A stretch of 64,000 nucleotides of DNA from positions 186,001 through 250,000 of the forward strand of contig JASCOC010000002.1 of NCBI GenBank assembly GCA_029959605.1, written 5' to 3'. The notes beneath the pieces were generated by a model. The model saw only the letters and a program-made list of their open reading frames with translations. It was not told the DNA's origin and made no database searches. Shown piece by piece: positions 52,222-56,955 of the stretch (its first letter is position 1; every line of letters starts with the position of its first letter). The stretch is from Lysobacteraceae bacterium PS02340 (GTDB taxonomy: Bacteria > Pseudomonadota > Gammaproteobacteria > Xanthomonadales > Xanthomonadaceae). The translations under genes and the position numbers were made by a program.

Positions 52222-52247
52222 TATCTCTATATCGCGATATGGAGATA
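52222..52247 (+). promoter_or_regulatory. 26-bp palindromic operator over the RBS of the ArsR-methyltransferase gene
   Basis: A 26-bp palindrome centred between 52234 and 52235, with arms TATCTC and GAGATA and core ATATCGCGATAT, matches at 12 of 13 positions (only 52228/52241 fail). Its right arm contains GGAG (52241-52244), the Shine-Dalgarno of the regulator gene starting at 52251. An ArsR-family protein bound here would block its own operon at transcription start or translation start. No second copy was found in the window. Confidence 0.8.
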
Positions 52248-52250
52248 TTG

Positions 52251-53180
52251 ATGGATCTGGAGGCCTGGTCCGCGCGCCTGAAAGTGCTCGCCGACCCCAC
52301 GCGTGTCCGCCTGCTCGCCCTGCTCGAAGTCGAAGAGCTCACGGTGGCCGAGCTGTCCTCGATCACCCGCCTCGCCCAACCGCGCGTGTCTACGCACTTG
52401 GCGCGGCTGAAGGAAGCGAACCTCGTGCGCGACCGCCGCGCCGGTGTGTCCGCCTACTACCGCTTCGACGACGCCGCGCTCGATCCCGCGCAGCGTGCGC
52501 TGTGGCAGGCGCTGTCGACCGGCAGCGACGATCCGCTGCTGCGCCAGGATGCCGAGCGCACGCCGGCGGTGCTGGCGACGCGCGCCGCCGATCAGAGCTG
52601 GGCCGACACCGTGGCCGGCGACATGGAACGGCACTACTCGCCCGGCCGTACATGGGAAGCTCTCGCGCGTTCCGCGCTGCCGCTGCTGGAAACCGGCGAC
52701 GTGCTCGACATCGCCTCGGGCGACGGTGTGCTCGCCGAGCTGCTGGCGCCGCATGCCCATCGTTACGTGTGTCTGGATGCCAGCCGCCGCGTCGTGGCCG
52801 CATCGACGGAGCGGCTCAAGCGATTCACCAACGTCGAGGTGCGCGAAGGCGACATGCATGCCCTGCCCTTCGAGGCCGGCAGCTTCGACCTCGTCGTGCT
52901 GATGCATGCGTTGACCTACGCGACCAAGCCCGCGCAGGCCGTCACCGAAGCCGCGCGCGTGTTGCGGCCGGGGGGTCGTCTGCTGTTGTCGAGCCTGGAC
53001 CGGCACGGCCACGAAACCGCGGTGCAGGCCTACGGCCACGCGAACCTCGGCTTCCCGGACAAGGAGCTGCGCCGTTTCGTCACCAAGGCCGGGCTGGAGA
53101 TCCACAGTGCCGAAACCGTCACCCGCGAGAAGCGTCCGCCGCATTTCCAAGTGATTTCGATCATCGCGAGAAAGCCATGA
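52251..53180 (+). CDS. ArsR-family HTH fused to an SAM-dependent methyltransferase (SahR-like regulator)
   Basis: A 309-residue fusion. Residues 5-95 are an ArsR winged helix ([20 protein letters not shown], then [20 protein letters not shown] as the recognition helix). They lack the CxC metal site of ArsR/SmtB sensors. Residues 125-305 are a class-I methyltransferase fold with [18 protein letters not shown] (motif I), [31 protein letters not shown] and [16 protein letters not shown]. Adjacent metH suggests that the SAM/SAH-binding fold serves as the sensor, as proposed for SahR-type regulators of the methionine cycle. Start ATG 52251 is used because GGAG is 6 nt upstream; an ATG at 52239 lies inside the operator. 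It overlaps metH part 1 by 4 bp. Confidence 0.88.
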
Positions 53181-54274
53181 CCACATGGCTGCATCCCGAA
53201 CGCGTCGCAGCGCTCGACGCCGCACTGGCCCAACGCATCCTCGTGCTCGACGGCGCGATGGGGACGATGATCCAGCGCTTCGAACTGACCGAGGCCGACT
53301 ATCGCGGCGAGCGCTTCGCGCAGGGTTACGACGCGCTGCATGTGGTCGAAGGCCACGCGCATGGTGCCGGCTGCGGCTGCGAAAGCCACGACCAGCGCGG
53401 CAACAATGATCTGCTCACGCTCACGCGTCCCGACATCATCCAGGGCATCCACGCCGACTATCTCGCTGCCGGCGCGGACATCGTCGAGACCAACACCTTC
53501 AACTCGACCGCGGTGTCGCTGGCCGACTATCGGCTGCAGCATCTGGTCCACGAACTCAACGAAACCGGTGCAGCATTGGCGCGCGCGGCCTGCGACGCCG
53601 CGCAAGCGCAGACGCCGTATCGCCCGCGCTTCGTCGCCGGCATCCTCGGGCCGACCAGCCGTACCGCATCGATCAGTCCCGACGTCAACGATCCCGGCTA
53701 TCGCGCGGTGACTTTCGACGAACTGGTGTCGATCTATCGCGACGCGGCCCATGGGCTGATCGACGGCGGCGCCGACATCCTCATGGTCGAGACCGTGTTC
53801 GACACGCTCAACGCCAAGGCCGCGCTGTACGCCATCGAGACCGTGTTCGACGATCGCGGCGGACGCCTGCCGGTGATGATCTCCGGCACGATCACCGACG
53901 CCTCCGGCCGCACGCTGTCGGGCCAGACCGCCGAGGCGTTCTGGTACTCGCTGCAGCACGCGCGTCCACATGCGGTGGGCCTCAACTGCGCGCTCGGCGC
54001 GAAGGACCTGCGCCCGCACGTCGAAACGCTGTCGCAGATCGCGCAGACCTACGTGTCCTGTCATCCGAACGCCGGACTGCCGAATGCCTTCGGCGGCTAC
54101 GACGAGACGCCCGAGGACATGGCCGAGGTGCTGCGCGAATTCGCGACCGCCGGTCTGTTGAACATCGTCGGCGGCTGTTGCGGCACGTCGCCGGACCACA
54201 TCCGCGCGATCGCCGAGGCGGTCTGTGATGTGGCGCCGCGCCGACCGCCCGCACCCCTGGACGCCGCCGCATGA
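53177..54274 (+). CDS. metH: Methionine synthase, homocysteine-binding module (split MetH, part 1)
   Basis: Zinc-dependent homocysteine S-methyltransferase module of cobalamin-dependent methionine synthase, 365 residues, matching the first about 350 residues of E. coli MetH. The (beta/alpha)8 barrel carries [54 protein letters not shown], the zinc ligand C271 in GLNCALG and C334/C335 in GGCCGTSP. Residues about 52-74 form an insertion ([20 protein letters not shown]) with four His and two Cys where E. coli has a short loop. The ATG overlaps the regulator stop; its own stop overlaps part 2 by 4 bp. The two-gene arrangement replaces one polypeptide. Confidence 0.95.
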
Positions 54275-56955
54275 CGCGTCCCCGCCACACCCGCCTGTCC
54301 GGCCTCGAGCCGCTGATCGTCACGCCGGAACTGCTCTTCATCAACGTCGGCGAGCGCACCAACGTCACCGGCTCGGCGGCGTTCCGCAAGCTGATCAAGG
54401 AGAACCGCTACCCCGAGGCCGTCGAGGTCGCGCGCCAACAGGTCGAAGGCGGCGCGCAGATCCTCGACGTCAACATGGACGAGGGCATGCTCGATTCCGA
54501 GCATGCGATGACGACGTTCCTCAACCTGATCGCCGCCGAGCCCGACATCGCGCGCATTCCGGTCATGGTCGACTCCTCGAAATGGACCGTCATTGAGGCC
54601 GGCCTGAAATGCCTGCAGGGCAAGGGCGTGGTCAACTCGATCTCGCTCAAGGAAGGCGAAGCCGCATTCCTCGAACAGGCGCGGAAGGTGCTGCGCTACG
54701 GCGCGGCGGTCGTGGTCATGGCCTTCGACGAGGTGGGCCAGGCGGACACGAAGGACCGCAAGGTCGAGATCTGCACGCGCGCCTACAAGCTCTTGACCGA
54801 AGTCGTCGGGTTTCCGCCCGAGGACATCATCTTCGACCCCAACATCTTCGCGATCGCCACCGGCATCGCCGAGCACGACAACTACGCGGTTGATTTCATC
54901 GAGGCGACCCGCGAGATCAAGGCGACGTTGCCGCATTGCCACGTCTCGGGTGGCGTTTCCAACGTGTCGTTCTCCTTCCGCGGCAACGAGGTCGTGCGCC
55001 AGGCGATCCACGCGGTGTTCCTGTTCCATGCGATCAAGGCCGGCATGGATTTCGGCATCGTCAACGCCGGCGCGATGCCGATCGTCGACGATCTGGATTC
55101 GGAGCTTCGCGAGTGCGTCGAGGACGTGGTGCTCAATCGGCGCAGCGATTCGACCGAGCGCCTGCTCGATCTCGCCGAACGCTACAAGGGCAAGAAGGGC
55201 GCGGCGCGGGTCGAGAACACCGCCTGGCGCGAGGCACCGGTGCAGCAGCGGCTCACGCATGCGCTGGTGCACGGCATCGACCAGTACGTGGTCGAAGACA
55301 CCGAAGAGGCGCGGCAGTCGTTCACGCGCCCGCTGGACGTCATCGAAGGTCCGTTGATGGCCGGCATGAACGTCGTCGGTGATCTGTTCGGCGCCGGCAA
55401 GATGTTTCTGCCGCAGGTGGTCAAGTCCGCGCGCGTGATGAAGAAGGCTGTGGCCTACCTGCTGCCCTACATCGAAGCCGAGAAGCTGCGCACCGGCGAC
55501 GCGGGCAAGAACAACGGCCGCGTGCTGATGGCGACCGTCAAGGGCGACGTGCACGACATCGGCAAGAACATCGTCGGCGTGGTGCTCGCCTGCAACAACT
55601 TCGAAGTCGTCGATCTCGGCGTCATGGTCGCCACCCAGACCATCCTCGACAAGGCGCGCGAAGTACAGGCGGACGTGATCGGTCTGTCGGGCCTGATCAC
55701 GCCCTCGCTAGAGGAAATGAGCCACGTGGCCCGCGAGATGAAGCGCCAGGGCTTCGAGACGCCGCTGCTGATCGGCGGCGCGACGACCTCGCGTGCGCAC
55801 ACCGCGTTGAAGATCGCGCCGCATTACGCATCGCCCACGGTCTGGGTGAAGGATGCCTCGCGCGCGGTGGGCGTGGTGCAGTCGCTGATCAGCCCGGAAC
55901 TGCGCGGCGCCTTCGTCGCCGCCAACGATGCCGACTACGCCGAGATCCGCCAGCGTCATGCCAATCGCGGTGACGCGAAGCGGCTGGTCTCGCTGGCCAA
56001 GGCGCGCGCGCAGCGCTTCGACGGCGACTGGGGCCGGTACACGCCGCCCACGCCCCACAAGCCCGGCGTGCACGTATTCGACGACTATCCGCTCGACGAT
56101 CTGGTTCCGATCATCGACTGGACGCCGTTCTTCAACGCCTGGGAACTGTTCGGCAAGTACCCGACGATCCTCAGCGACGAGGTCGTCGGCCCGCAGGCCA
56201 CCGAACTGTTCAACGATGCGCAGGCGATGCTGCGCCGGATCGTCGACGAGAAATGGCTGACCGCGAAAGCCGTGTTCGGCCTGTGGCCGGCCAACAGCAT
56301 CGGCGACGACGTGGTGCTGCAGCACGAGCGCGGCGAGGCGACGCTGCACTTCCTGCGCCAGCAGGTCGACAAGCCGGTCGAACGGCCGGACTTCTGCCTC
56401 GCGGACTTCATCGCCCCGCAGGACAGCGGCAAGCAGGACTGGATCGGCGCGTTCGCGGTCACGGCCGGCATCGGCATCGATCCGCACGTCGCCCGTTTCG
56501 AGGCCGCGCACGACGACTACAACGCGATCCTGCTCAAGGCGCTGGCCGATCGTCTGGCTGAAGCGCTGGCCGAGCGTCTGCACCAGCGCGTGCGCACCGA
56601 CTACTGGGGCTATGCGACCGACGAAGACCTCGACAACGATGCGCTGATCGCCGAGAAATACCGTGGCATCCGCCCCGCCCCCGGCTATCCGGCGTGTCCG
56701 GAGCACAGCGAGAAAGGCCGGCTGTTCGAGCTGCTAGATGCGACCGCGCACACCAGCATGACGCTGACCGAAAGCTTCGCGATGCTGCCGACCGCGGCGG
56801 TCTCGGGCTACTACTTCAGCCATCCGAAGAGCCAGTATTTCGTCGTCGGCCGCGTGTCGAAGGAACAGGCGCAGGACTACGCGAAGCGCAAGGATGCCAC
56901 GCTCGCGCAGGTCGAACGCTGGCTCGCGTCGAACCTCGACTACGACCCGGAATAG
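54271..56955 (+). CDS. metH: Methionine synthase, folate/cobalamin/reactivation modules (split MetH, part 2)
   Basis: An 894-residue protein with the remaining three MetH modules. The methyltetrahydrofolate-binding barrel covers about 15-290 ([34 protein letters not shown]). The cap and B12-binding Rossmann module covers about 320-560, with cobalt ligand H428 in [12 protein letters not shown]. The C-terminal AdoMet activation domain covers about 570-890 ([11 protein letters not shown], then [15 protein letters not shown]). All key residues are present, so the enzyme should work in trans with part 1. Translational coupling by ATGA keeps the two halves equimolar. A hairpin follows at 56978. Confidence 0.96.

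Follow-up and report, generated by a model that had tools for sequence, protein, structure and literature searches.

The present study shows that positions 52222-56955 of our window, that is, of the whole stretch of 64,000 nucleotides analysed here (positions 186,001 to 250,000 of contig JASCOC010000002.1 from Lysobacteraceae bacterium PS02340), hold the samR-metH1-metH2 operon of a Luteimonas. SamR joins an ArsR-type winged helix to a class I methyltransferase-like domain and is followed by the two parts of a methionine synthase. The system is the published SamR (Leyn et al. 2014; PMC4239095), an already known switch, met here as a Luteimonas copy. Luteimonas SamR very probably turns down the production of methionine and S-adenosylmethionine (SAM) by sitting on its own promoter. 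We consider it likely that SamR is a DNA-binding repressor of its own operon, metK and metX, and that its methyltransferase-like domain senses SAM and/or S-adenosylhomocysteine (SAH). Directly observed are the genes and the operator site, together with how well the site is conserved, how it is tied to the promoter and which genes carry it. New in our study are an order-wide test of the operator, the promoter tie, and the sites at ahcY and cysG.

A preliminary description of this DNA had claimed a 26-bp palindrome over the Shine-Dalgarno sequence of samR, and such a near-palindrome, with 12 of 13 pairs matched, is indeed present there (Table 1). One palindrome of such quality occurs in the window; 60 sequences simulated with the dinucleotide composition of the window had a mean of 0.27 and a maximum of 2. 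The bare palindrome is unremarkable by itself and is weak evidence; its significance comes from conservation across relatives, on which ground a chance palindrome was rejected. The best operator match lies upstream of samR in 60/60 family orthologues, agreeing in 15-26 of 26 letters. The 60 samR sites were made into a weight matrix, which was run over upstream regions together with column-permuted versions of it as control. Leave-one-out scores of the samR sites were at least 21.8, versus a 99.9% control value of 10.9 as measured on metK and ahcY upstream regions. The pattern ATCN5ATCN2GATN5GAT was found in 58/60 family genomes and its reversed control in 0/60. All four half-sites are exact at samR in 56/60 (the exceptions are G003, G009, G018, and G055), the individual triplets being kept in 60, 59, 59, and 58 of the 60.

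The preliminary description had proposed to give up its reading if the palindrome were not conserved upstream of orthologues, but conserved it is. Besides the 60 family loci, 30 of 31 order-level samR loci (20 fetched from order-level matches and 11 already in the set) carry a site scoring above 25 bits, L364 being the exception, and the loci with an operator reach down to 42% protein identity (range 42-66%). At class level, four SamR-like loci had an upstream region; weaker sites occur in L096 (16.5) and L097 (23.3), and no operator was recognisable by matrix scan in L098 and L099. These last two encode SamR-like proteins of 46-50% identity, and the stretch examined around them holds no metH either.

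The position of the operator is tied to the -35 box and not to the start codon. The transcription start of samR is predicted from promoter spacing at about 52228, inside the left arm of the operator. TTGAC stands 27-38 bp before the operator in 58/60 orthologues. Measured from its centre, the operator is 14-19 bp upstream of the start codon in 45/60 loci; in the remaining 15 the distance is 23-119 bp. Of the 45 near-start operators, 44 are preceded by TTGAC at 27-38 bp and 1 lacks it; of the 15 displaced ones, 14 are preceded by it, always at 29-30 bp, and the fifteenth lacks it. Of the near-start loci, 31 have a Shine-Dalgarno-like stretch within the operator, and none was found in the other 14; of the displaced loci, 13 have it beyond the operator and 1 has it within, and none was found in the last. 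Since the operator follows the -35 box and not the start codon, control at the ribosome-binding site, as proposed in the preliminary description, is not supported. What stands of that proposal is the self-regulated ArsR-methyltransferase regulator of metH, which conservation supports and which corresponds to the published SamR. The overlap of operator and Shine-Dalgarno sequence is real here and common in the family (inside the operator in 32/60 overall), but it is not the conserved feature; it arises because the leader is only about 23 nt long and is not the mechanism.

The same matrix found further genes with matching sites. Upstream of metK, 55/56 regions scored over the 99.9% control (the miss being G004). 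For metX, matched in 52 genomes, the scan took in 29 of 30 loci (not L311, at a contig end), and 24/29 exceeded the 99% control and 8/29 the 99.9% control. For cysG (siroheme synthase), scanned in 30 loci from 39 genomes with a match, the corresponding counts were 14/30 and 4/30. The ahcY scan covered 54 of 56 genomes, G014 and G024 being dropped for a match without the 5′ part; 11/54 regions exceeded the 99.9% control, all with the site 179-238 bp before the model start. Furthermore, the exact pattern has at least 27 matches away from samR, and 19 of the 27 listed precede methionine/SAM-cycle genes or cysG: metX 6, metE 3 (in three genomes), metK 3, ahcY 3, cysG 3, and hom 1 (in one genome). 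The other 8 of the 27 were not assigned and counted for nothing (G004, G056, G041, G000 C81, two in G013, G025 C29, and G029); their neighbours include vapC, pdxJ, hmgA, and a TonB receptor. In the PS02340 genome, a relaxed pattern gave exact matches at samR, metK, metX, and one TonB receptor gene, and its reversed control gave 0. The matrix scores there were 29.4 for metK, 22.7 for metX (above the 15.6 of the 99% control and below the 22.8 of the 99.9% control), and 15.7 for the TonB receptor site; the matrix scan showed no site in the upstream region of ahcY (score -6.9). The start of ahcY follows metK on the same strand at a distance of less than 500 bp in 13/53 genomes, and the metK operators may also serve ahcY in these. 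At the DNA level, the predicted SamR regulon is well supported by this comparative evidence, and the cysG sites would tie sulfate assimilation into it.

On visual inspection, the samR site directly adjoins the -10 box. At metK an extended -10 element (e.g., TGTATCAT) stands about 10 bp before the site, which lies over the predicted start (24 of 55 sites examined); at ahcY it runs into TATAAT or a near match (11/11 sites); and at metX it ends in the first bases of TTGACA (11 sites examined). The geometry at samR, metK, and ahcY would fit steric repression. Both outer triplets are kept in all metK, ahcY, and metX sites counted, and the inner right GAT is kept in 3/55 metK, 3/11 ahcY, and 10/29 metX sites, whereas samR nearly always has all half-sites; this retention is partly built in, since the search matrix itself rewards the triplets. 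The pattern suggests that operator affinity may be graded, with autoregulation the tightest.

SamR was matched in 60/60 family genomes (E <= 1e-30) and in 115/121 order genomes (E <= 1e-25), 19 of the 121 belonging to the same family; one of the 115 matches (G347) reaches only 36% identity. Homologues occurred in 18/274 class genomes, three of the family, five at 44-54% identity and ten at 31-39%. Candidates scored per genome were limited to 8 in the class search and 19 in the order search, and a miss in either is no proof of absence. We took the last ten proteins for putative SahR. On a tree, 47 SamR-like and 10 SahR-like proteins are split on one branch with 100/100 support, subject to a long-branch warning. 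After exclusion of 4 family rows and of short proteins, an alignment of 92 SamR-like proteins keeps D153, G157, G159, D176, and D201, which we take to be SAM-binding positions, in at least 99% of the proteins. Block 121-136 has 14 of its 16 residues conserved in at least 97%; the block is mostly different in the 10 SahR-like proteins, A122 being common to 9/10. Histidines 128, 203, 252, 254, and 263, in the second half, are at least 98% conserved. The only cysteine of the PS02340 protein is C174, with none before it, and therefore the winged helix has no Cys metal site of the kind found in metal-sensing ArsR/SmtB proteins, just as the preliminary description held. The NCBIfam ArsR/SmtB subfamily model NF033788 matches SamR nonetheless, at 76.3 bits versus a cut-off of 55.

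An AlphaFold model of SamR has a mean predicted local distance difference test (pLDDT) value of 63 and is good only for much of the methyltransferase part. Foldseek returned ordinary class I methyltransferases (YcgJ, RebM, and AtmM first) with TM-scores over the query of about 0.5. Given these scores and the low confidence of residues 1-132, we make no claim on the fold of the first half. Among the best 60 of 75 PDB sequence matches, each covering one domain, there was no relative with both domains.

From these observations we infer the binding of SamR, repression, the sensing of SAM or SAH, and the direction of the response. The ArsR winged helix would bind ATC-N5-ATC-N2-GAT-N5-GAT. Since the operator runs from the -10 box over the predicted start, bound SamR would block RNA polymerase. 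It would act likewise through less perfect sites at metK and metX in PS02340, and at ahcY and cysG in some relatives. The methyltransferase-like domain would bind SAM and/or SAH and signal the state of the methyl cycle. Repression when SAM is plentiful, with SAM as corepressor and SAH possibly as antagonist, would be the likeliest logic.

Several points weigh against this mechanism. Over control, 43/54 ahcY and 16/30 cysG regions have no site. The metX site lies upstream of the -35 box, a position that would also suit an activator. Model confidence is low for residues 1-132. Nothing on binding, expression, or ligands of SamR turned up in our literature search. Apart from PMC5343134, the titles showed no further paper on SamR by name, most subscription papers lying outside the scope of the search, so that absence is unproven. 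Finally, the reported data on one promoter, that of the Xanthomonas campestris met operon (PMC6230763), do not fit the simplest model. There, upstream stretches of 109 and 52 bp, counted from the mapped start, were fused to gusA; both fusions are reported to have similar activity with and without methionine, the response lying in the 5′-untranslated region, and the authors conclude that transcription is constitutive. In two Xanthomonas genomes (G006 and G058, whose samR loci are nearest to Xanthomonas sp. F10 at 95-97% DNA identity) we placed the metX site at about -59 to -34. If the site lies likewise in X. campestris, the longer fusion should contain it; this placement is inferred from those two genomes, X. 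campestris not being found among 20 genomes. Plasmid copies titrating SamR, SAH as the effector, the growth state, or the lack of a role for SamR at that promoter are possible reasons for the missing methionine response.

SAH as the effector leads to a possible, if doubtful, alternative, in which SamR works like SahR: SAH would release it from DNA, the methyl-cycle genes would come on as SAH accumulates, and SAM would take no direct part. The distant homology of SamR to SahR (31-39% identity to the 10 proteins taken for it), the site at the SAH-removing gene ahcY in 11 genomes and the position of ahcY shortly after metK in 13/53 would be expected of such a regulator, and the reported behaviour of the X. 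campestris fusions (PMC6230763) would fit it too. On the other hand, the 43 genomes in which ahcY has no site of its own over control include PS02340, the steadiest targets, metK and metX, are synthesis genes, which fits feedback by SAM, and SamR is set apart from SahR both by the 100/100 split and by the differing block beside the methyltransferase domain. That SamR is a working methyltransferase (e.g., of arsenite) that also regulates strikes us as quite improbable. Such a protein has been reported in Brevundimonas, where the ArsRM fusion of a metRFHH operon methylates arsenite and binds its own promoter (PMC10190100). The neighbours and most of the assigned targets of SamR are methionine genes, which argues against this reading. 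In its favour, the presumed SAM-binding positions are intact and the five second-half histidines are conserved; against it, C174 is the sole cysteine, whereas arsenite methyltransferases generally use several. The ArsRM report itself describes non-cysteine arsenite contacts (PMC10190100).

We give hardly any credence to control on translation, in which the palindrome would work at the mRNA level, either as a hairpin or as a site for a protein that covers the Shine-Dalgarno sequence. GGAG does lie inside the right arm in PS02340, a Shine-Dalgarno-like stretch is within the operator in 32/60 loci, and a transcript with the whole palindrome would form an 11-bp stem, a fold that 52/200 shuffles equal. 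However, the mRNA predicted to start at about 52228 is without half of the left arm, and its segment 52228-52280 folds no better than shuffles (z 1.24); the operator tracks the -35 box; and the metX and ahcY sites lie at or upstream of predicted promoter elements. An Rfam search of the window gave no match at the gathering threshold and hence none for samR-metH, and an RNA element there was rejected on this ground.

Riboswitches do occur elsewhere in the pathway. RF00162 (SAM-I) precedes metX in 20/20 loci that we selected for testing, and RF01057 (SAH) precedes ahcY in 20/20 loci likewise selected (20 of 54 ahcY regions, including all 11 with a site), PS02340 being included in both. The family offers a case of one pathway apparently under a protein and two riboswitch classes at once. 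A bolder version of the repressor reading, which we regard as unlikely, would have SamR read the SAM/SAH ratio, perhaps by slow SAM turnover in a still-active site. It would then form the DNA layer of a two-layer circuit, in which graded operators (complete with all four half-sites at samR; short of one inner half-site in most of the metK sites) are stacked on the SAM-I (metX) and SAH (ahcY) riboswitches and samR-metH is the riboswitch-free branch.

The samR gene encodes 309 amino acids. An alternative start at ATG 52239 was rejected; an upstream in-frame ATG within 60 nt occurs in only 7/60 orthologues, and 52251 is the aligned start. The 4-bp overlaps of samR with metH1 (53177-53180) and of metH1 with metH2 (54271-54274) that had been noted earlier are both there, each as ATGA. 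The S-methyl_trans domain is alone in metH1, the pterin, B12, and activation domains are all in metH2, and the two together span most of the PRK09490 methionine synthase model (1234 positions). The distance from samR to metH1 is at most 60 bp in 51/60 family loci and 61-262 bp in 8; metH1 was not found in 1, on a short contig. The split of metH is not universal, a rough test finding separate reading frames in 49/57 family and 12/29 order loci, some of the latter containing only part of metH2. The SamR protein is 100% identical to a protein of Luteimonas sp. 9C, and the surrounding DNA is 91% identical.

Table 1. Features of the samR-metH1-metH2 locus (window coordinates).
Feature	Position	Strand	Basis or remark
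-35 box TTGACC	52193..52198	+	only promoter-like site in 52040-52320; 9/12 matches; spacer 17
-10 box GACAAT	52216..52221	+	promoter prediction; abuts operator
SamR operator (predicted), TATCTCTATATCGCGATATGGAGATA	52222..52247	none	ATC-N5-ATC-N2-GAT-N5-GAT, two overlapping ATC-N10-GAT sites
GGAG, Shine-Dalgarno-like	52241..52244	+	in right arm of operator; 6 nt before ATG 52251
samR, ArsR-type winged helix and class I methyltransferase-like domain	52251..53180	+	Pfam, NCBIfam
HTH_5 domain, residues 15-60	52293..52430	+	PF01022, E 1.1e-13
SamR-specific block, residues 121-136	52611..52658	+	conservation in SamR-like proteins; low model confidence
Methyltransf_11 domain, residues 152-245	52704..52985	+	PF08241, E 5.9e-23; D153, G157, G159, D176, D201 retained
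metH1, homocysteine-binding part of methionine synthase	53177..54274	+	PF02574, E 2.7e-97; PRK09490 positions 7-339
metH2, pterin, B12, and activation domains	54271..56955	+	PF00809, PF02607, PF02310, PF02965; PRK09490 positions 341-1233

Some further observations concern single loci. In PS02340, a match with four half-sites (C81:93686; loci L454/L142; matrix score 15.7) lies 171 bp before a TonB-dependent receptor gene, whose product matches heme, siderophore, and B12 receptor models below their cut-offs. Uptake of B12 by this receptor would fit the need of MetH, a link that is unproven. Another SamR-like site with one mismatch (C40:6163; L456; matrix score 18.7) stands directly before an ATG near a contig end. 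The cysG loci L145, L154, and L164 have a site upstream; L145 also contains a divergent CysB-type regulator, and a similar-looking one is seen in L154 and L164. A record labelled Bacillus subtilis SK7B5 contig00038 contains a SamR gene that is 83% identical, which makes a contamination of this assembly with Xanthomonadaceae DNA probable.

Among known systems, the SAM-I riboswitch is reported to control the metX (metA) operon in Xanthomonas, of the same family (PMC7270179, PMC6230763). It is an RNA control and acts at metX, unlike the samR-metH region, which has no Rfam match at the gathering threshold. ArsRM of Brevundimonas sp. M20, described as combining arsenite methylation with own-promoter binding (PMC10190100), resembles SamR as an ArsR/methyltransferase fusion that heads a methionine operon; own-promoter binding is reported for ArsRM and predicted for SamR. 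ArsRM differs in binding CTTTATATAAAG and in its reported methylation of arsenite, the two proteins being compared here by description and not by alignment. SahR, described by Novichkov et al. 2014 (cited through PMC4239095 and PMC8877191), shares with SamR a similar length (E. aridi sahR is listed as 1023 in a primer table), autoregulation, and methionine/SAM-cycle targets. SamR stands on a separate branch, outside the SahR clade (100/100 split from the putative SahR proteins), block 121-136 is mostly not in common, and several class-level SahR-like genes (L100, L105, L109) carry gatataaagatatctttat upstream instead of the SamR site.

The closest match is the SamR of Leyn et al. 2014 (PMC4239095), a distant SahR homologue predicted in four genomes of Xanthomonadales; the 2016 survey PMC5343134 also tabulates SamR and calls that work its own. 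As reported in PMC4239095, samR adjoins metH1 and metH2 in Xanthomonas, and its 24-bp palindrome shares ATC-10 nt-GAT with the SahR site. Our data agree in each respect: SamR is an ArsR-family protein with HTH_5 and, like the published one (about 30% identity), distant from SahR; metH1 and metH2 adjoin it; the palindrome with ATC-N10-GAT lies in the common upstream region, at 52222-52247; and the regulon targets metK (55/56) and metX (24/29) recur. In contrast to the printed site, the operator here is 26 bp long, and in place of four genomes our study covers 60 family and 31 order-level loci and adds the ahcY and cysG sites. The SamR account in PMC4239095 leaves the effector open; its authors suggest a response to SAM, on the ground that no SAM-cycle genes besides metK were found in the regulon. 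That statement does not hold across the family. With ahcY sites in 11/54 genomes, the printed ground for SAM as the effector is weakened, and the comparison sharpens the question raised in 2014 of whether SamR senses SAM or SAH.

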